From Myxococcaceae bacterium (GTDB lineage: Bacteria; Myxococcota; Myxococcia; Myxococcales; Myxococcaceae): 35,103 nt of DNA. Under the pieces are notes generated by a model. The model worked only from the letters and a program-made list of their open reading frames with translations. It made no database searches and was not told the DNA's origin. This document shows positions 24,999 through 35,103 of the stretch, piece after piece (position 1 is the stretch's first letter; the number at the start of each line of letters is the position of its first letter). The stretch lies in the NCBI GenBank assembly GCA_003818285.1, contig RPRB01000031.1:1-35103 (forward strand). The letters run 5' to 3'. A program made the translations under genes and the position numbers.

Positions 24999-27070
24999 GG
25001 CTCGCTCCCGTGCGTTCCCTCCTCCTGCTGGCCGCGCTGCTCGGGACGGCCGCCCCTGCCGCCGAGGCGCCGGCCACCGTCTCCGAGGGGCCGCTCCCCA
25101 CCCTCCCCTACACGCCGGGGCTCGATCCGGCGTCGATGGACCGGACCGTCGATCCCTGCGTGGACTTCTACGCCTTCTCCTGTGGGGGATGGATGGCGAG
25201 GAACCCCATCCCTCCCGACCAGGGCGCGTGGAGCGTGTACGCCAAGCTGGAGGGAGACATCGAGCGGCACCTGTGGGGCCTGCTCCAGGCCGCGGCGGAC
25301 CCCTCGGCGGCGCGGAGCCCGGCGCAGATGCAGATCGGCGACTACTTCGCCGCCTGCATGGACGAGGCGCGCATCGAGTCGCTGGGGAGCAAGCCGCTCC
25401 AGCCCGAGCTGGAGGCGCTCGAGCAGGTGAAGGACCGCCCCGGTCTCGCGGCCTGGGTGGCGCGGCAGCACCTCTCCACCCGGACCGGGCGGCTGATGTT
25501 CGGATTCGACTCCGAGCAGGATGCCGCTGACGCCACCCAGGTGATCGCCGCGGTGTACGCCGGCGGCATCGGCCTCCCCGACCGGGACGACTACCTGGAC
25601 CCCGACCCGAAGGCGAAGGAGACGCTCGGCAAGTACCAGGAGCACGTGGTGCGGACGCTCCAGCTCCTCGGGGACGACCCGTCGACGGCGCGGGCGACCG
25701 GCCGGCTGGTGATGGACATCGAGACCACGCTGGCCAAGGCGACGCTCACCCGCGTGGAGCAGCGCGACCCGTACAAGGTCTACCACCGGCTCTCGCTGCA
25801 GAAGCTGACCGCGATGTCTCCCACCTTCGACTGGAGGGCGTACCTGGCGACCGCCGGCGTCCCGGGAACGAAGGTGCTCAACGTGAGCCAGCCACGATTC
25901 TTCCAGACCCTGGACAGGGAGCTGAAGCGCCGTCCGCTGGCGGACTGGAAGCGGTACCTCCGCTGGCAGCTGGTCAACGTCAGCGCCCGCTACCTCTCGC
26001 GCGCCTTCGTCGAGGAGGACTTCGCCTTCTACGGGAAGGCCCTCGCGGGCACCGAGCAGATCGCCCCCCGCTGGAAGCGATGCGTGCGCTGGGTGGACCG
26101 GGATCTCGGCGAGGCGCTGGGCCAGGTCTTCGTCCAGAAGAACTTCTCTCCCGAGCTCAAGGAAAGGACGCTGGCGATGGTCCTCGGCATCGAGCGCGAG
26201 ATGGAGGAGGACCTCCGTACACTGGCCTGGATGTCACCACCGACGCGGACGCGGGCCATCGAGAAGCTCAAGGCGATGGCGAACAAGATCGGCTACCCCG
26301 ATCGGTTGCGTGACTACTCGTCCATCCGGCTCGCCCGCGACGACTTCCGGGGCAACGTCACGCGCGCGGTGCAGTTCGAGGCGGACCGGCTCCTGGCGAA
26401 GATCGGCAAGCCGGTGGACCGCGGCGAGTGGGAAATGACGCCGCAGACGGTGAACGCGTACTACAGCCCCTCGATGAACGACATGAACTTCCCGGCCGGA
26501 GTGCTCCAGCCGCCGCTCTACGACCCGAAGATGGACGCGGCGCCGGGGTACGGGAACACCGGCGGGACCATCGGCCACGAGCTCACCCACGGGTTCGACG
26601 ACGAAGGGCGGCAGTACGACGCGAAGGGCAACCTCCGGAACTGGTGGACGAAGCAGGACGTGGCGGAGTTCAACCGGCGCGCCGCCTGCGTTTCCGACCA
26701 GTACAGCAGCTACCTCGCCGTGGACGAGGTGCACGTGAACGGCAAGCTCACGCTGGGCGAGGACGTGGCGGACCTCGGCGGGCTCATCCTCGCCTACCGG
26801 GCCTGGAGGACCGCCACCGCCAACCAGCGCCTCATGCCCATCGACGGCCTCACCCCCGACCAGCGCTTCTTCGTGGGCTATGCCCAGTGGGCGTGCGGCA
26901 ACGTGCGGCCGCAGGTCGCCCGGCTGCGCGCCCGGACGGATCCGCACTCGCCGGCGAGGTACCGGGTCAACGGGCTGATGGTGAACATGGCCGAGTTCGG
27001 CCAGGCCTTCGCGTGCCAGACGGGGACGCCGATGACCAAGCCCCCGGAGAGGGTCTGCAAGGTCTGGTAG
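24995..27070 (+). CDS. M13 zinc metallopeptidase, tandem paralogue
   Basis: This 691-residue M13 peptidase is highly similar to its upstream neighbour along the whole length: CVDFYAFSCGGWMARNP, VNAYYSPSMNDMNFPAG, HELTH (528-532), LGEDVADLGGL (E589) and a C-terminal CKVW. A conventional signal peptide (RSLLLLAALLGTAAPAAEA) without a lipobox cysteine predicts a soluble periplasmic or secreted form, unlike the lipidated paralogue. The GTG at 24995 overlaps the previous stop by four bases (GTGA); a GTG at 25010 would also give a good signal peptide. The pair therefore comes from a tandem duplication that diverged mostly in targeting. Its stop (27068-27070) is directly followed by the stop of the convergent gene. 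Confidence 0.94.
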   Translation: MRLAPVRSLLLLAALLGTAAPAAEAPATVSEGPLPTLPYTPGLDPASMDRTVDPCVDFYAFSCGGWMARNPIPPDQGAWSVYAKLEGDIERHLWGLLQAAADPSAARSPAQMQIGDYFAACMDEARIESLGSKPLQPELEALEQVKDRPGLAAWVARQHLSTRTGRLMFGFDSEQDAADATQVIAAVYAGGIGLPDRDDYLDPDPKAKETLGKYQEHVVRTLQLLGDDPSTARATGRLVMDIETTLAKATLTRVEQRDPYKVYHRLSLQKLTAMSPTFDWRAYLATAGVPGTKVLNVSQPRFFQTLDRELKRRPLADWKRYLRWQLVNVSARYLSRAFVEEDFAFYGKALAGTEQIAPRWKRCVRWVDRDLGEALGQVFVQKNFSPELKERTLAMVLGIEREMEEDLRTLAWMSPPTRTRAIEKLKAMANKIGYPDRLRDYSSIRLARDDFRGNVTRAVQFEADRLLAKIGKPVDRGEWEMTPQTVNAYYSPSMNDMNFPAGVLQPPLYDPKMDAAPGYGNTGGTIGHELTHGFDDEGRQYDAKGNLRNWWTKQDVAEFNRRAACVSDQYSSYLAVDEVHVNGKLTLGEDVADLGGLILAYRAWRTATANQRLMPIDGLTPDQRFFVGYAQWACGNVRPQVARLRARTDPHSPARYRVNGLMVNMAEFGQAFACQTGTPMTKPPERVCKVW

Positions 27071-27733: not shown

Positions 27734-27779
27734 CAGCCGCTTGCACCGCGACCGCGGGCTGTGCCAGACAGCCGCTTGC
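27734..27779. repeat. 11-base direct repeat upstream of the riboswitch
   Basis: CAGCCGCTTGC occurs at 27734-27744 and 27769-27779, spaced 35 bases start to start. The second copy overlaps the left edge of the proposed riboswitch P1 helix. GGCTGT (27757-27762) can also pair with ACAGCC (27768-27773), competing with that helix. A protein-binding site or chance are both possible. Confidence 0.35.
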
Positions 27780-28015
27780 CCCCGGGTGCCCATGTCGGGC
27801 CCAACAGGGAAGCCGGTGAGAGTCCGGCGCGGTCCCGCCACTGTGAACGGAGCGGCCCGAGGAACCGGGCCGGTTCGACATCCTCCGTCGGTCACCACTG
27901 CGGAACAGCACGTTCCGCGGGAAGGTGGGAGGACGAACGAGGACGTGAAAGGCGCCATCGGGGCGTCACCCACGCTCCCCAGCCGTGAGCCAGGAGACCT
28001 GCCCGAGGGTGCGGC
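27771..28015 (+). promoter_or_regulatory. cobalamin riboswitch
   Basis: The leader of the btuB-like gene contains the cobalamin riboswitch core. Seen in order: GGTGCC (27785-27790), GGGC then AACAGGGAA (27803-27811), GCCGGTGAGAGTCCGGC, the B12 box CGGTCCCGCCACTGTGAA, a hairpin GCGGAA/TTCCGC (27900-27918), the conserved GGGAAGG (27919-27925), and the 3' element GAGCCAGGAGACCTGCC (27987-28003). Closing helix P1 can form between GCCGC (27771-27775) and GCGGC (28011-28015). Adenosylcobalamin or related corrinoid binding should lower expression of the downstream operon. Outer edges are approximate; the core is unmistakable. Confidence 0.93.
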
Positions 28016-28028
28016 GCCGGAGGCGCCG
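28012..28028 (+). promoter_or_regulatory. hairpin overlapping the 3' side of riboswitch P1
   Basis: CGGCGCC (28012-28018) pairs perfectly with GGCGCCG (28022-28028) across a GGA loop. It shares bases 28012-28015 with the proposed P1 helix, so the two are mutually exclusive. It is a candidate part of the switching expression platform. Confidence 0.5.
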
Positions 28029-28071: not shown

Positions 28072-30018
28072 ATGGGCGGATGGCGATGGGCCCGGGCGTG
28101 TCTCGGGCCGGCCTTGAGCGTGGCGTCGATCGCCTGGGGGCAGTCCCCGGCGGTGGTGGAGCTTCCCCCCGTGGACGTGCCGGTTCCGGCCGCGCCGCCA
28201 CCTCCCGAGTCCCCGCTGGTGCGTGATCCGACCGGGCTGACCACGGTGGTGGACGTGGCCTCCCGTCGCTCCGAGGTCTCCACCCTGGGGGTGCTGGTGG
28301 GGGAGGCGCCCGGGGTGGTGCTCCAGCAGACCGGTGGAATCGGACAGGCCGAGCAGCTGAGCCTGCGGGGCGCGTCGAGCACGGGCGTGCTGGTGCTGCT
28401 CGACGGCGTGCCGCTGAACGCGCTCGGAGGCGTCGCCGACCTCAGCCTGGTGCCGCTCCCCGCGGTGCAGCGGGCCGAGGTGCTCCGCGGCGGTGCGGGC
28501 GCCCGTTACGGGGCAGGCACTCTCGGGGGCGTGGTCAACCTCGTCACCCGGAGCGCCGCGGAGCCGGTCATCTCGGGCGACGTCGGAGCGGGCAGCTTCG
28601 GGACGATCCAGGGCAGCGCGAGCGCCTCGGGACCGGTGCTCGGCGGCTCGGGGCTGCTGGAGCTGCACGCCGGGCACAGCGACGGCGACTTCCCCTACCT
28701 CTACGACCCCCTCGCCGGGACGCCGGCCAGCAATCCGAAGACGCTGATCCGCGAGAACAACCAGGCGACGTGGGTCGGCGGGCTGGCCAAGGGAGGCGGA
28801 CGCGTCGGGCAGTGGCGGCTGGACGGGCTCGTCCAGGTGAGCGCGCTGTCGCGCGGGCTGGCCGGCACCGTGGACCATCCCACTCCGGACGCGCACCAGG
28901 ACTTCCTCGGGCTCCAGGCGGGCCTGCGGCTGTCGCGGGCTTGGGCCTCCGGCGCGGACACCTCGCTGCGCCTCGACACGCGGCGAGAGGGCAACACCTT
29001 CCGGGGTGGCGACTTCTCCGACGACACCCGGTGGTGGCAGGCATCGCTCTCCTGGGACGGGACGCTGCCGGTCGGACATCACTGGCTGTCGGCGTCGGCC
29101 TCGGTGGGCCTGTCCTTCGCCGACGCCGACGAGCACGCGCCTCGCTGGGCGGTCACCTCGGCCTCGGTGCAGGACGAGTGGCGGCCGGGAGGGGGAAGCG
29201 TCTCCATCGTGCCGTCGGCGCGCATCGACCAGGGGGGGCCCTTCGTGGGGATCTCCCCCAAGCTCGGCGTCTCCTGGGCCCTGCCGGCCGGCGTCACCCT
29301 CCAGGCAAACGTGGGGCAGTCGTACCGGATTCCCTCCTTCCTCGAGCTGTACATTCCCACCGGCACGACGCTCGCCAACCCGGACCTGGAACCCGAGCGG
29401 GGCGTCTTCGTCGACGCCGGCGCGGGCATCGCCGGCGCCCCGGGGATGCTCCGGGTGGCCGGCTTCGCCGCGCAGTACGAGAACCTCATCGTCTACGAGT
29501 ACCAGCCCCCGGTCCCCACCCGGCCCGAGAACGTCGGCGCGGTGCGCGCCGCCGGGCTCGAGGCGGAGGGTCGCCTGCAGCCGGCGCGGTGGGTGGAGCT
29601 CACCGGGAGCTACGGGCTCCTGTTCACCGAGAACATCCGCGCCATCCAGGCCTACTACCTGAAGGAGGCGCCCTTCCGCCCCCGCCACCGCGGTACGTTG
29701 CGTCTCGCGCTCGGGCCGGAGCGCCTCCGGGTCCACGGCACCCTGCGCGCCCAGTCCCTCATGTGGGTGAACCGGTCCAATACCCAGTCCATCGCCGGCC
29801 GGGTGCTCGTGGACGCGGGCGTGGATCTCACGGTGCTCCGCCGCCCGGAGGTGGTGCTCTCCTTCAACGCCACCAACCTCGGCGACGTGCAGACCCGCGA
29901 CCTCGACGCCTACCCGCTCCCGGGCCGGGCCTTCCTCGCCACCCTGACCATGCGGCTCGACCTGCCGCGCAGTCCTCCTTCCACCCCGCCGTCCGTGTCT
30001 TCCGAGGGAACTCCATGA
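28072..30018 (+). CDS. btuB: TonB-dependent outer-membrane cobalamin receptor (BtuB-like)
   Basis: This 648-residue outer-membrane receptor should carry B12 or another corrinoid into the periplasm. A signal peptide (to about AWGQS, residue 25) is followed by a Pro/Val-rich TonB-box region. The plug domain has the motifs LSLRGASSTGVLVLLDGVPLN and VLRGGAGARYGAGTLGGVVNLVTR. The remaining 500 residues are amphipathic barrel strands (SYRIPSFLELYIP, NPDLEPERGVFVDAG). Its place under a cobalamin riboswitch and before btuFCD makes the substrate B12. The barrel seems to end at FLATLTMRLDL, with a Pro/Ser tail of about 18 residues in place of the usual terminal aromatic. The stop overlaps the next gene's ATG by four bases. 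Confidence 0.93.
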   Translation: MGGWRWARACLGPALSVASIAWGQSPAVVELPPVDVPVPAAPPPPESPLVRDPTGLTTVVDVASRRSEVSTLGVLVGEAPGVVLQQTGGIGQAEQLSLRGASSTGVLVLLDGVPLNALGGVADLSLVPLPAVQRAEVLRGGAGARYGAGTLGGVVNLVTRSAAEPVISGDVGAGSFGTIQGSASASGPVLGGSGLLELHAGHSDGDFPYLYDPLAGTPASNPKTLIRENNQATWVGGLAKGGGRVGQWRLDGLVQVSALSRGLAGTVDHPTPDAHQDFLGLQAGLRLSRAWASGADTSLRLDTRREGNTFRGGDFSDDTRWWQASLSWDGTLPVGHHWLSASASVGLSFADADEHAPRWAVTSASVQDEWRPGGGSVSIVPSARIDQGGPFVGISPKLGVSWALPAGVTLQANVGQSYRIPSFLELYIPTGTTLANPDLEPERGVFVDAGAGIAGAPGMLRVAGFAAQYENLIVYEYQPPVPTRPENVGAVRAAGLEAEGRLQPARWVELTGSYGLLFTENIRAIQAYYLKEAPFRPRHRGTLRLALGPERLRVHGTLRAQSLMWVNRSNTQSIAGRVLVDAGVDLTVLRRPEVVLSFNATNLGDVQTRDLDAYPLPGRAFLATLTMRLDLPRSPPSTPPSVSSEGTP

Positions 30019-31574
30019 CGCCGTCCATCCGAGCGGCCCTGTCCGCGATCCTCCTCGCCGGCCTCGCGCTGCTTCCCGGCTGCCTGTCGTCGAGCGAGAT
30101 CCAGTGCGTCAGCGGCACCGTCCGCTGCGGCGACACCTGCGTCGCCACCCAGACCGACAACAACAACTGCGGCTCCTGCGGCTCGGCGTGCAGCGGCGGG
30201 AACGTGTGCGTGGCGGGGGGGTGCACCTGCCCCGTGGGTCAGGGCGTGTGCAACGGCATCTGCACCGCGGTGGCCAGCGACCCGAACAACTGCGGGGTCT
30301 GCGGCCTGACGTGTGGTGCGGGTCAGGCCTGCAACCAGGGCGTCTGCCAGGACTGCTCGCAGGGCGGGTGCCGGACCGCGCTCATCGCCGGGTGCATCGC
30401 CGCTCCGGGTGGCTACCTGCAGCGCATCCAGGACGCGCCCGGGGGCCTCCTGCTCGAGGCTCCGGCAAACCCACCGGTCGCCACCTTCCCGGACGCGCTC
30501 GGGTTCATCGGGACGGCCCTGCTCTACGGCGACCACGACAGCTCGACCCTGCTCGAGATCCCCGTGGGTTCGCTGGGGAGCGCGAGCAGCGAGCGGCTCT
30601 CCCTGGTGACCGGGACCACCGGCAGCATCGCGGGGACCAGCGACATCTACGTCGAGGCGGCCGACGCCGGCTCGCGCATCTACGCCATGGCGACCCTGGT
30701 CAACACGCTGCGGATCTTCGGTGGGCCGGATCCGGCGCAGGCCGGAGCCCTGCTGGACGCCGGCCCGGGCTCCGTCGGCGCGCTCGGGCTCCAGGACCTG
30801 GGCGGCCATGCCTTCGACCCCGGAAGCTTCCCCGAGCCGTTCGGGAAGATCGGCAACGACGTCTTCGTGCCCCTGAACGCGACCGGCCAGGTGCTCCGGG
30901 TGAACGTGAGCAATCCCGCCGGAACGACGGTGGGGGACACCTACGACCTCCAGCCTCTGGTCGCCGCCCTGCCCGGTGGGGGGGTGCTCCCCGACGGCGG
31001 GGCGTTCCAGGCCTCGCCCACGCAGGCCATCGCTCGCAACGGATACGTGTACGTGGCGGCGAATGTCCTGAGGTTCGACCCGGACCGCTTCGTGAGTGAT
31101 TACGGCCCGCCCCTGGTGGTGCGCATCGACCCCACCAAGTCCGGCCAGGCCGCCCTCTCGGCGGTGCAGGGACTCGACGCGGGGGTGTGCCAGAATGTGG
31201 AGTGGCTCGCCTCGCTCCCGCTGGGCACCGCCGCCCGCCCGATGCTGGTGAGCTGTGCCGGCGTGCGCACCTACGACCAGAACTTCAACGTCACCTCGGT
31301 CGCGAACACCGCGCTCCTGCTCCTCGACGGGAACGACCAGCAGATCACCTCCTGGGCCCCGAGCAACGGCGCCGGTCAGACGCCTCCCAGCGTGGGCCGT
31401 GCGGTGGTCCAGAACACCACGGTGTACGTCGCCGACGAGTCGGCGAGCCGGCTCTACGTCCTCGATTACGGCACGAACTCCTTCGTGGAGCGGGTGGGCT
31501 ACGTGGACGGCGGGACGCCGCCCCAGATCTGCCCCACGTACATCAGTGACCTCGTGGTGTCGCCCGCGCCGTGA
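30015..31574 (+). CDS. cysteine-rich, probable beta-propeller lipoprotein in the B12 operon (BtuG-like position)
   Basis: This encodes 519 residues. MTPSIRAALSAILLAGLALL then PGC gives a lipoprotein signal with C23. Residues 31-127 hold 19 cysteines in repeats of the type CGDTCVATQTDNNNCGSCG, common in myxobacterial lipoproteins. From about 128 to the end the sequence alternates short beta-like strands with Gly/Asp turns, e.g. NGYVYVAANVLRFDP and TVYVADESASRLYVLDYG (469-486), as in YVTN/NHL-type beta-propellers. A propeller lipoprotein directly after btuB recalls BtuG of Bacteroides, which binds B12 at the surface and passes it to BtuB. The fold is inferred from pattern, not shown, and the cysteine region has no BtuG counterpart that I know. 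GAGGGA (30004-30009) is the ribosome-binding site; the start overlaps btuB (ATGA) and the stop overlaps btuF. Confidence 0.85.
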   Translation: MTPSIRAALSAILLAGLALLPGCLSSSEIQCVSGTVRCGDTCVATQTDNNNCGSCGSACSGGNVCVAGGCTCPVGQGVCNGICTAVASDPNNCGVCGLTCGAGQACNQGVCQDCSQGGCRTALIAGCIAAPGGYLQRIQDAPGGLLLEAPANPPVATFPDALGFIGTALLYGDHDSSTLLEIPVGSLGSASSERLSLVTGTTGSIAGTSDIYVEAADAGSRIYAMATLVNTLRIFGGPDPAQAGALLDAGPGSVGALGLQDLGGHAFDPGSFPEPFGKIGNDVFVPLNATGQVLRVNVSNPAGTTVGDTYDLQPLVAALPGGGVLPDGGAFQASPTQAIARNGYVYVAANVLRFDPDRFVSDYGPPLVVRIDPTKSGQAALSAVQGLDAGVCQNVEWLASLPLGTAARPMLVSCAGVRTYDQNFNVTSVANTALLLLDGNDQQITSWAPSNGAGQTPPSVGRAVVQNTTVYVADESASRLYVLDYGTNSFVERVGYVDGGTPPQICPTYISDLVVSPAP

Positions 31575-32407
31575 CCGCCGCCGCTCTCCTCTGCGTGGTG
31601 GTGCTCGGCGCCGGCGCGGACCCCGGTCCGCTCCGGATGCTCGGGCCGGCGCCGAGAGGAGAGGTGCGGCGGGTGGTGACGCTCACCCCGTCCCTGACCG
31701 ACGTGGTGCTGGCGCTCGGTGCCGGGGACCGGCTGGTGGGGGTGTCCCGCTTCGACGAGCGCGCCGAGGTGGCGCGCCTGCCGCGCGTGGGGGGCTTCGT
31801 CGACCCGAGCGTCGAGGCGGTGATGGCCCTCCACCCGGATCTCATCCTGGCCGAGCCCGGGCCCGGCAATCGCCAGGCGGTGGAGCGCATGGCGGAGCTC
31901 GGCGCGCCGGTGCTGCTCCTCCCGCTGGGGACGGTGGCCGACGTGCTCGCCGCCGAGCGCACCGCCGGAAAGGCGCTGGGCAGGGCCGAGCAGGGAGAGG
32001 CGCTGGCACGGGAGCTGGAGGCCACGCGGGCGCGCATCCGCGAACGCGCTCGCGGCCGGACCCCGGTGCGGGTGCTGCTGGTCTACGGCTTCGATCCGCT
32101 GGTGGTGGCGGGACCTGGCGGCTTCGCCGACGAGCTGCTCACGGACGCCGGGGCGCTGAACGTGGCGCGCGACGCCGCGAGCCCGTACCCCGTCTACTCG
32201 GTGGAGCGGGCGCTGCGGAGCCGTCCGGAGCTCATCCTCGACGCAGCGATGGTTCCGGCGGGGCGCGACCGGCTGCAGACCCTTCCCGGCCTGGCCGAGG
32301 CGCGCTGGGCGTCGGTTCCGGGGAAGGCGCTGCTGCACCCCGGTCCGGCGCTCGGACGAGGACTCGAGCAGCTCTTCGCGCTCGTCCACCCGGAGGCGGG
32401 ACGTTGA
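31571..32407 (+). CDS. btuF: periplasmic cobalamin-binding protein of ABC transporter
   Basis: This 278-residue class III binding protein collects B12 in the periplasm for the BtuCD transporter. The N-terminus (MTAAALLCVVVLGAGA) is a signal peptide. The family motifs are present: RVVTLTPSLTDVVLALGAGD, VGVSRFDE, GGFVDPSVEAVMALHPDLIL, VLLVYGFDPLVVAGPGGFADE and a C-terminal helix region GRGLEQLFALVHP. It lacks a lipobox, so it should be soluble. The GTG start overlaps the stop of the lipoprotein gene (GTGA, 31571-31574). B12 specificity rests on the riboswitch and operon; related proteins bind haem or siderophores. Confidence 0.92.
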   Translation: MTAAALLCVVVLGAGADPGPLRMLGPAPRGEVRRVVTLTPSLTDVVLALGAGDRLVGVSRFDERAEVARLPRVGGFVDPSVEAVMALHPDLILAEPGPGNRQAVERMAELGAPVLLLPLGTVADVLAAERTAGKALGRAEQGEALARELEATRARIRERARGRTPVRVLLVYGFDPLVVAGPGGFADELLTDAGALNVARDAASPYPVYSVERALRSRPELILDAAMVPAGRDRLQTLPGLAEARWASVPGKALLHPGPALGRGLEQLFALVHPEAGR

Positions 32408-33429
32408 CCAGCTTGGCCGGACCGCTCCCCGTTCCCTCGGCGGTGCGCTTCACGCCCGCACGGGCGAGCCTCGTCCTCGGAGGCCTCCTGCTGGTCACCC
32501 TCGCGGCGCTGGTCGCCTCGGCGCTGCTCGGCGAGTACCCGGTGCACGTGCTCCGGGCGCTGGCTGATCCCGCGTCGCCGGACGGGCGGGTGCTGTTCGG
32601 GCTGCGGCTCCCTCGCGCGCTCCTCGGGGCCCTGGTGGGTGCGGCGCTGGCGGCGAGCGGCAGCGCGCTCCAGGCGCTGCTCCGGAACCCGCTCGCCGAT
32701 CCCTTCGTCCTCGGCGTCTCGGGAGGTGCGGCGCTCGGGGCGACGCTGGCCCTCGCGCTGGGGCTCCAGGCGCTGGCCGGACCGTCGCTCTTCGCCTTCG
32801 TCGGCGCCGTGGCGGCGATGGCGCTGGTGCTCGCCGCCGGGCGGGCGCGCAGCTCGCCGTACGCGGCGCTCCTGACCGGCGTGGTGTTCAACGCCTTCGC
32901 CGCGGCGGTCATCACCTGCGTCAAGACGCTGCTCACGCCCGACCGGCTCGGCGAGGTCCTGTACTGGCTCGCGGGGAACCTGGGCTACGAGCGGCCGCGG
33001 ACGCTCCTCGTGGGCGGGGGGCTCCAGCTCCTCGCCCTCGGCCTTCTCTGGGCCGAGTCGGCCCGGCTGAACCTCCTCTCGCTGGGCGACGAGGAGGCCG
33101 CCTCGCTCGGGGTGCCGGTGGGGCGGACCCGGGCGCTGGTGCTCCTCGCCGCCTCGCTCAGCGTCGCCGGGGCCGTGGCGCTCGCGGGGCTGATCGGCTT
33201 CGTCGGCCTCATCGTGCCGCACCTGCTGCGGCTCTGGCTCGGACCCGACCAGCGGTTCCTGGTCCCGGCCAGCGCGCTCGGCGGCGCGGCCTTCCTGGTG
33301 CTCGCCGACGCGGCGACGCGGGTGCTGTTCCCGGTCTTTCACGCCGAGCCGCCGGTGGGCGTGGTGACCGCCGTGCTCGGCGGCCCGCTGTTCGTCTGGC
33401 TCCTCAACCGGCGGGACCAGCCGGCATGA
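32404..33429 (+). CDS. btuC: cobalamin ABC transporter permease
   Basis: This 341-residue FecCD/BtuC-type permease has about ten membrane helices. Landmarks are LRLPRALLGALVGAALAASG, LQALLRNPLADPFVLGVSGG, the cytoplasmic coupling region LGDEEAASLGVPVG and GLIGFVGLIVPHLLRLWLG. Two copies with two BtuD ATPases form the inner-membrane importer. It uses a TTG start: TTGA at 32404-32407 overlaps the btuF stop, and GGAGG (32392-32396) sits seven bases upstream. That strongly supports this rare start over the in-frame GTG at 32443. Confidence 0.93.
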   Translation: MTSLAGPLPVPSAVRFTPARASLVLGGLLLVTLAALVASALLGEYPVHVLRALADPASPDGRVLFGLRLPRALLGALVGAALAASGSALQALLRNPLADPFVLGVSGGAALGATLALALGLQALAGPSLFAFVGAVAAMALVLAAGRARSSPYAALLTGVVFNAFAAAVITCVKTLLTPDRLGEVLYWLAGNLGYERPRTLLVGGGLQLLALGLLWAESARLNLLSLGDEEAASLGVPVGRTRALVLLAASLSVAGAVALAGLIGFVGLIVPHLLRLWLGPDQRFLVPASALGGAAFLVLADAATRVLFPVFHAEPPVGVVTAVLGGPLFVWLLNRRDQPA

Positions 33430-34208
33430 CCGCCCCGGCCCTGGAGACCGCCTCGCTCGCCGTGGGGTACGGGGGCTTCCCGGTGGTCTCCGGAGTCTCG
33501 GTCGCCATCGCCCCCGGCTCGCTCTGGGCGGTGCTCGGGCCGAACGGCTCGGGGAAGAGCACCCTGCTCCGGACCGTCCTGGGTCTGCTCCGGCCGCTCG
33601 AGGGCGAGGTGCGCCTCTTCGGAACGCTGCTGGGACGGTGGGAACGTCGCGCGCTCGCCCGCCGCGTGGCCTGGGTTCCGCAGTCGTTCGATGGCGACCC
33701 GGGCTTCACCGGCCTCGAGCTGGTGCTCCTGGGGCGCGCCCCGCACCAGGGCGCGTGGGGGCTCCCCGGCCCAAGGGACCTGTCCATCGCGCGGGCCGTG
33801 CTGTCCGAGCTGGAGATCGCCCATCTGGCAGGGCGCGTCGTCTCGCGGCTGTCCGGTGGGGAGCGGCGCCTGCTCCTCGTGGCCCGCGCGCTCGCACAGG
33901 AGCCGTCGCTCCTGCTGCTCGACGAGCCCACCGCCTTCCTGGACCTCCAGCACCAGGCGCAGGTCCTCGAGCGGGTGCGGGCACGGGTGCGCCGGGGCCT
34001 GGCCGCGGTTGCCGTGCTCCACGATCCGAACCTCGCCGCGGCATTCGCCGACGCGGTGCTGCTCCTCCGCGACGGGCGGGTGCTGGGGCAGGGAGCCTCC
34101 GCCGAGCTGCTCGACGCCGAGCGGCTGGGACAGCTCTACGGGCTCGGCCTCACCGAGGCGCGCACCGAGACCGGCCACCGTCTCTTCGCTCCGCGGGGGA
34201 CGGGGTGA
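33426..34208 (+). CDS. btuD: cobalamin ABC transporter ATP-binding protein
   Basis: This 260-residue ABC ATPase drives the BtuC permease. The motifs are complete: Walker A GPNGSGKST (38-46), Q-loop Q86 in VPQSF, signature LSGGE (142-146), Walker B LLLLDEP (162-168), D-loop and switch histidine H199 in VLHDPN. It belongs to the FecE/BtuD class by length and by partner genes. The ATG overlaps the btuC stop (ATGA, 33426-33429), and its own stop overlaps the TonB-like gene. Confidence 0.94.
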   Translation: MTAPALETASLAVGYGGFPVVSGVSVAIAPGSLWAVLGPNGSGKSTLLRTVLGLLRPLEGEVRLFGTLLGRWERRALARRVAWVPQSFDGDPGFTGLELVLLGRAPHQGAWGLPGPRDLSIARAVLSELEIAHLAGRVVSRLSGGERRLLLVARALAQEPSLLLLDEPTAFLDLQHQAQVLERVRARVRRGLAAVAVLHDPNLAAAFADAVLLLRDGRVLGQGASAELLDAERLGQLYGLGLTEARTETGHRLFAPRGTG

Positions 34209-35103
34209 GCGCGCCCCGGCTCTCGCGCGCGGTGGCCGCCTCGGCCGCGGCGCACCTCATCGTCGTCGCGGGTCTCCTCGCGCTCGCGCATCCCCGAGTC
34301 CCGGCGTCGCCGGCGATGCGGGTCGCTCTGGTGGAGGCGGCGGGCCCGGCCGGGCGGCCTGCGGCGAGCGCCGGCACCGGCGCGGCTCACGGGGCGCCCG
34401 GACGAGGCGCGGTCGGGCTCGCGGAACGCGAGGACTCGCGGGCGGACCCCGGCACGGCTCCGGCTCTCCGGGAGGCTTCGGGCGCGACCGACAGCGTGCC
34501 TCCGCGGGCCACGCCCTCTCCGCCGGCGTCCCGGTCCGTCCGGAGATCCGAGGCGCAGCGGCCCCCCCCGGAAAGTTCCGGAGGCGCGGCGGCCGCGGAC
34601 GCGGTGGCGCTGCTGACGCCGGTGCAGTCGGACCTGTGGGTGCTCGGGGGTCCGGTCACGAAGGCCGCACCCGAGGCGCGCCCTGCGGCGGCCAGCGCGG
34701 ACCGAACGGGCGCCTCCGGCGCATCGAGCCCGGAGGTCGCCGGTGGCGGACCCGCGGCGGCGGCGGCCTCGAGCGCGGGAGGGGACGGCGCGGGGTCCGG
34801 CTCTCCGGGAAGCTCGGGCTCCGGTGGCACGGGTGACGCCTCACTCCTGGCCGTGCTCTCGCAGCGCCTGGCGTGGTCCGCCCAGCGCTGCGCTCCTCCC
34901 TCGGTGGTCCGGACCGCGCGCCACGCGGTCCCGGGGGTCCCGCTGCGCTTCTGTCTCGATGCCGCCGGCCGGCCGAGCGAGGTGGGCCTGCTGGGAACGA
35001 CCGGCTCGGATCAGCTGGACCGGGCGGCGCGGGACTGCGTCATCCCCGGGGCGCTGCCGCTCCCGCCCGTTCCCGGCTGCTACACCGTCGAGGTCCGCTT
35101 CCC
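34205..35103 (+). CDS. TonB-like energy transducer, 3' end cut by window
   Basis: The visible 299 residues start at a GTG overlapping the btuD stop (GTGA, 34205-34208). A single N-terminal helix (SRAVAASAAAHLIVVAGLLA, about 7-26) would anchor it in the inner membrane. A long Ala/Gly/Pro/Ser linker (about 45-210) spans the periplasm. A C-terminal domain begins near SLLAVLSQRLAWSAQRC and includes GVPLRFCLDAAGRPSEVGLL and GCYTVEVRF, matching the TonB/TolA C-terminal pattern. Its place at the end of the B12 operon suggests a TonB dedicated to the BtuB-like receptor. Four cysteines in the C-terminal domain (C229, C250, C278, C292) are unusual for TonB and could form disulfides. The last residues lie outside the window, as do any exbB/exbD genes. 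Confidence 0.82.
   Translation, partial: MSAPRLSRAVAASAAAHLIVVAGLLALAHPRVPASPAMRVALVEAAGPAGRPAASAGTGAAHGAPGRGAVGLAEREDSRADPGTAPALREASGATDSVPPRATPSPPASRSVRRSEAQRPPPESSGGAAAADAVALLTPVQSDLWVLGGPVTKAAPEARPAAASADRTGASGASSPEVAGGGPAAAAASSAGGDGAGSGSPGSSGSGGTGDASLLAVLSQRLAWSAQRCAPPSVVRTARHAVPGVPLRFCLDAAGRPSEVGLLGTTGSDQLDRAARDCVIPGALPLPPVPGCYTVEVRF

Follow-up and report, generated by a model that had tools for sequence, protein, structure and literature searches.

A gene for a lipoprotein lies between the genes of the receptor BtuB and the binding protein BtuF in a B12 uptake operon of a Myxococcaceae bacterium, and the question raised by this locus is which part such a protein plays in B12 uptake. In Bacteroides, femtomolar binding has been reported for the lipoprotein BtuG, which was described as exclusive to Bacteroidetes on the basis of BlastP searches (PMC6143338). 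BtuG acts on BtuB like the lid of a pedal bin, and lipoprotein-assisted uptake has been put forward as a trait common to Bacteroides (PMC10404256). The original prediction assigned the same part to the protein encoded here, which was followed up by computational analysis of the window, i.e. the whole stretch of 35,103 nucleotides, and of related loci.

Operon, riboswitch and B12 supply of the host

The B12 locus comprises the following features:

27767..28020, + strand: cobalamin riboswitch aptamer 5' of btuB (RF00174, 62.8 bits, E 2e-13)
28072..30018, + strand: btuB-like TonB-dependent receptor (TIGR01779 TonB-B12, E 2.5e-33, best NCBIfam match with a score under the cut-off of that model; Plug and barrel domains)
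30015..30083, + strand: lipoprotein signal peptide and lipobox LPGC with lipidated Cys23 (translation; lipobox in nearly all relatives)
30084..30374, + strand: Cys-rich module with STIG1/MXAN_6577-like repeats (NF041328, E 4e-21, 75.4 bits; PF04885, E 2.3e-8)
30375..31571, + strand: predicted YncE/YVTN-type beta-propeller domain (profile matches 1L0Q, E 1.4e-19, and BtuG1 8BLW, E 6.8e-6)
31571..32407, + strand: btuF-like periplasmic binding protein (PF01497, E 2.2e-23; PRK03379 (BtuF) as best NCBIfam match, E 1.3e-23)
32404..33429, + strand: btuC permease (FecCD) with TTG start (PF01032, E 1.5e-78)
33426..34208, + strand: btuD ABC ATPase (PF00005, E 6.5e-30)
34205..35103, + strand: sixth gene of the overlapping series, with a TonB-like layout, truncated at the contig end (GTGA overlap)

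The lipoprotein gene is an unbroken frame of 519 residues (30015-31571, + strand) with a stop codon extending to 31574. As predicted, it overlaps both neighbors by four bases, namely with ATGA at the end of btuB (30018) and with GTGA at the start of btuF (31571). Four-base overlaps are present at every junction from btuB to btuD and again into the sixth gene. The riboswitch that had been postulated ahead of a btuB-FCD operon was recovered with RF00174, and the identities of the neighboring genes were supported by family models. The product of the sixth gene has an N-terminal anchor and an Ala/Pro-rich spacer, and its C-terminal domain is conserved; a Pfam scan of this gene gave no match, and tblastn found relatives in the loci L042 and L045 only. 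Just upstream of the B12 locus, a gene for an M13 (neprilysin-type) metallopeptidase is encoded (25094-27067, + strand), and the stretch of open frame before it hints at a second copy.

The genome of the host, which is estimated to be 100% complete, encodes two matches to methylmalonyl-CoA mutase and further B12-binding domains. CbiC, CobS and the MetH activation domain PF02965 were not found in this genome. These gene contents suggest a B12 auxotroph, and because methylmalonyl-CoA mutase is present while CbiC and CobS are absent, the host is most likely a scavenger that takes B12 from outside. Among the 145 genomes of the order, only 12 encode CbiC, so that these bacteria seem to depend on B12 scavenged from outside.

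The cysteine-rich module and the propeller

The window protein contains 23 cysteines, of which 19 are located within residues 31-127, exactly as counted in the original prediction. This clustering exceeds all of 2000 codon shuffles, which yielded at most 13 cysteines per 97-residue window. Residues ~24-120 consist of STIG1/MXAN_6577-like Cys repeats (PF04885, NF041328). The module had been regarded as a special addition to one protein, a notion that had to be given up: the same repeat is common in deltaproteobacteria, where it forms long arrays in unrelated proteins, it is already covered by NF041328, and it is missing in several lineages. Particularly long arrays were observed in a deltaproteobacterial MAG (M3003; L002, L008 and L001), with dozens of units in L002. 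A search with the whole protein returned relatives that matched only via Cys-rich repeats in unrelated proteins; these were discarded and the searches were repeated with the propeller only.

NF041328 describes the N-terminal 145 residues of the propeller gene family and omits the propeller. Six btuB-adjacent relatives reach 120-167 bits with this model, for which the curated cut-off is 100; with 75.4 bits, under this cut-off, the window protein is a divergent member, and family clades without the Cys-rich module are missed altogether. As regards the statement that no description of such a protein outside Bacteroidota was known, the N-terminal family has a name already, and this name carries no function. 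No paper naming MXAN_6577 or NF041328 was found in the literature searched. A proteome study of Myxococcus xanthus lists MXAN6579, which is two tags from MXAN_6577, as a TonB-dependent receptor (PMC3222651); this would be in keeping with a btuB neighborhood. The Cys-rich module is absent from circularly permuted members and from members outside the class that keep the btuB-linked propeller. Since the module is missing where the btuB-linked ring persists, the common function would reside in the ring.

The fold of the remainder was assigned with family profiles. The A2 profile (36 sequences) matches the surface-layer YVTN propeller 1L0Q in four stretches (E 1.4e-19), followed by NHL proteins, YncE, BtuG1 (8BLW, 6.8e-6) and more propellers; the strong PDB matches of this profile are beta-propellers. 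Two further profiles represent clades without Cys module, A3 from outside the class and A4 with a permuted order. A3 matches 1L0Q, two YncE chains and BtuG1 (YncE-type 8PTF, 3.9e-6; 8BLW, 3.3e-5), and more weakly the BtuG chains 3DSM, 8BMY and 8BN0. A4 matches BtuG3 (8OKV, 6.4e-4; 8P97) and BtuG2 (8BMX, 8BMY, 3DSM) with E-values from 6e-4 to 1e-2, as well as PknD-type chains. BtuG chains make up most of the matches obtained with these two clades. The individual BtuG stretches in these profile comparisons are weak. The chains 8BLW, 8OKV, 8P97, 8BMX and 8BMY (PMC10404256) and 3DSM (PMC6143338) were assigned to BtuG proteins according to the literature. The expectation of a propeller-like remainder, the failure of which had been named beforehand as refuting the original prediction, is thereby borne out at the level of profiles, which support a beta-propeller for residues ~122-519 of the window protein.

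AlphaFold on the single window sequence gave a pLDDT of 33. By eye, and on the consensus only, seven blades can be counted. In an ungapped self-comparison for blade repeats, the best score was 35.3 versus a shuffled-column maximum of 40.5, and no blades are therefore claimed from this comparison. Cys127, Cys392, Cys414 and Cys506 are invariant columns among unpermuted members. Cys127 and Cys506 mark the two ends of the domain in the window protein and are close in sequence in permuted members. From these positions we infer two disulfides in the propeller, one of which would close the ring.

Distribution, linkage to btuB and circular permutation

With propeller residues 131-519 as query, 64 of the 96 family genomes were found to encode relatives. 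A 38-sequence propeller profile matched in 139/145 genomes of the order. A deeper profile matched in 145 of the 147 genomes from the class and in 161 of the 195 from the whole phylum Myxococcota; as weak matches were inspected in part, these counts should be read as upper bounds on the number of btuB-linked members. A search of plasmids for the propeller family gave no match. From the matches, 66 loci with 67 copies were picked so as to cover different genera and families as well as lineages outside the class. In 65 of these 67 copies, the propeller gene is located directly behind a btuB homolog on the same strand, mostly with a 4-base overlap. A lack of conservation next to btuB in relatives had been set beforehand as a refuting test for the original prediction; this position is conserved across Myxococcota. 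Two copies deviate: of the pair in L097, the first directly precedes btuB, and the other deviating copy is that of L045 (7065-9757). The latter is the second Cys-rich propeller copy of one genome and has no recognizable btuB ahead; btuC follows directly, and a relative of the sixth gene of the window is encoded further on.

The propeller gene is followed by btuF in 23 of the 39 Myxococcaceae loci and in most other loci. Among 48 scanned loci of relatives, 37 gave a cobalamin riboswitch; of the 11 loci without a match, five lack the sequence ahead of btuB. A second cobalamin riboswitch is located just downstream of the propeller gene in L059 (7042-7256) and L070 (8915-9131) and just downstream of btuC in L069 (4515-4732). 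In these loci, it apparently leads a transcription unit of its own; in L070, the first long ORF that follows it had no Pfam match.

Profile-profile comparisons (A3-A2, E 1.1e-39; A4-A2, E 5e-33) confirm that the A3 and A4 clades belong to the same family as A2. In L098, L099, L104, L105 and L110, the two halves of the profile are swapped, with the C-terminal half preceding the N-terminal one. When these sequences are doubled, the two halves join into one full-length profile match with gains of 58, 104, 19, 14 and 23 bits, respectively, whereas doubling causes a loss of 2-3 bits in unpermuted members. The rise upon doubling identifies these members as circularly permuted, an arrangement that a closed ring permits and that, next to the profiles, speaks for a beta-propeller. 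In L127-L131, the start of the ring is shifted to the next blade and the AACF blade stands last; the profile matches are split, and doubling gave a gain in L128 only (9 bits). L132 starts near profile position 228. Together, these loci (L098, L099, L104, L105, L110 and L127-L132) display at least three starting points, always behind btuB. Such natural permutations show that selection keeps the ring itself and not the anchoring point, and the series could be useful for studying propeller evolution.

Putative function in B12 uptake and relation to BtuG

A dedicated role of the lipoprotein in B12 uptake can be regarded as nearly certain. In the proposed mechanism, the protein would be an outer-membrane lipoprotein dedicated to work with the B12 receptor BtuB. 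Its ring-shaped beta-propeller would capture corrinoids and pass them to BtuB, with the capture probably taking place at the cell surface. BtuB would import them with TonB energy for transfer via BtuF to BtuCD, and plentiful B12 would turn off the whole gene set via the riboswitch. The propeller would be the functional core, while the Cys-rich repeats may form an optional stalk, stiffened by disulfides, that links the lipid anchor to the propeller. For a riboswitch-controlled propeller lipoprotein tied to BtuB in a scavenging lineage, a capture protein is the best explanation. Corrinoid binding by this putative B12-binding lipoprotein is likely, and BtuG-like surface capture with hand-off to BtuB is, with somewhat less confidence, the expected mode of action.

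The location of the protein bears on this mode of action. A lipobox is present in nearly all members, and no known surface-export signal was recognized in them. Among 58 members, position +2 is occupied by Pro in 32 and by Lys in only two; the window protein has Leu. In Myxococcus, a lysine at +2 marks inner-membrane lipoproteins, and outer-membrane lipoproteins have no conserved sorting residue (PMC3222651). The +2 residues thus fit an outer-membrane location; the leaflet cannot be read from them because such a sorting residue is not conserved in Myxococcus. Members have an acidic propeller part, with a median pI of 4.7, and BtuG2 binds B12 on a negatively charged face (PMC10404256); as an acidic pI is a common property, it is a weak sign of B12 binding.

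The leading rival explanation is a lipoprotein of the inner leaflet that serves as a periplasmic relay, picking up B12 on its exit from BtuB and handing it on to BtuF. The gene order btuB-lipoprotein-btuF in 23/39 Myxococcaceae loci and in most outgroup loci would agree with such a relay, as would a lipobox unaccompanied by a known surface-export signal. However, fold class and btuB link resemble those of the surface protein BtuG, and BtuB and BtuF of E. coli, to our knowledge, manage without any lipoprotein carrier, which makes the relay unlikely. Quite improbable is a BtuB helper without B12 binding, which would assemble, stabilize or anchor the receptor or bind another partner, for example matrix or prey material, via the Cys-rich repeats. 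This reading draws on the long arrays that repeats of the same kind form in unrelated proteins, but permuted and phylum-level members retain the btuB link while lacking the Cys part, which therefore cannot carry the shared function. It is the ring that is conserved, and its few PDB matches include BtuG chains. That a propeller without any role in B12 uptake came into the operon by chance is scarcely credible, as no point in its favor was found and the linkage to btuB holds for 65/67 copies across many families and several permutations, with or without the Cys module.

The putative capture protein resembles BtuG in being a btuB-adjacent lipoprotein under cobalamin riboswitch control with a beta-propeller by profile, the myxobacterial side of this comparison being known from sequence, and BtuG chains (8BLW, 8OKV, 8BMX, 3DSM) are among the few PDB matches of the family profiles. 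It differs in that it occurs in another phylum, mostly with a Cys-rich stalk, and in several circular permutations. In the Pfam scan, the window protein matched neither DUF5074, which we take to be the BtuG family in Pfam, nor DUF4465. Relatives gave few weak matches to DUF5074; in the host genome and relatives, DUF5074 matches were located elsewhere and none at the B12 locus. By sequence-level tests, the window protein is therefore outside BtuG, whose chains are reached by family profiles only. The best overall PDB match is 1L0Q, ahead of BtuG, and 1L0Q and YncE share the same blade pattern; we know of no link of either to B12. These comparisons, made with profiles of the family itself, suggest kinship with BtuG at the level of the propeller superfamily, with a closer relation only hinted at. 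BtuH and BtuJ (DUF4465) are further B12-binding lipoproteins of Bacteroides loci, and some DUF4465 members occur in Myxococcota (PMC13398666). In contrast to the myxobacterial protein, which is a propeller by profile, DUF4465 has a jelly-roll fold. In the literature searched, BtuG was not found linked to myxobacteria, save for a passing mention concerning DUF4465. As far as can be judged, the window protein may play the same part as BtuG, as originally predicted.

The btuB-linked propeller family is widespread in Myxococcota; its N-terminal module is known and named without a function. Chances are about even that Myxococcota possess their own near-universal class of propeller lipoproteins that serve as B12-capturing lids of BtuB apart from BtuG, with an optional stalk and a variously re-cut ring. 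A btuB-linked propeller in nearly all genomes of one class would extend lipoprotein-assisted uptake to a second phylum, and if this is true, such TonB-dependent uptake would not be a speciality of Bacteroidota. A family whose current record describes a cysteine-rich protein with no assigned function would gain a testable role, and predatory bacteria unable to make B12 would harvest corrinoids via propeller lipoproteins.
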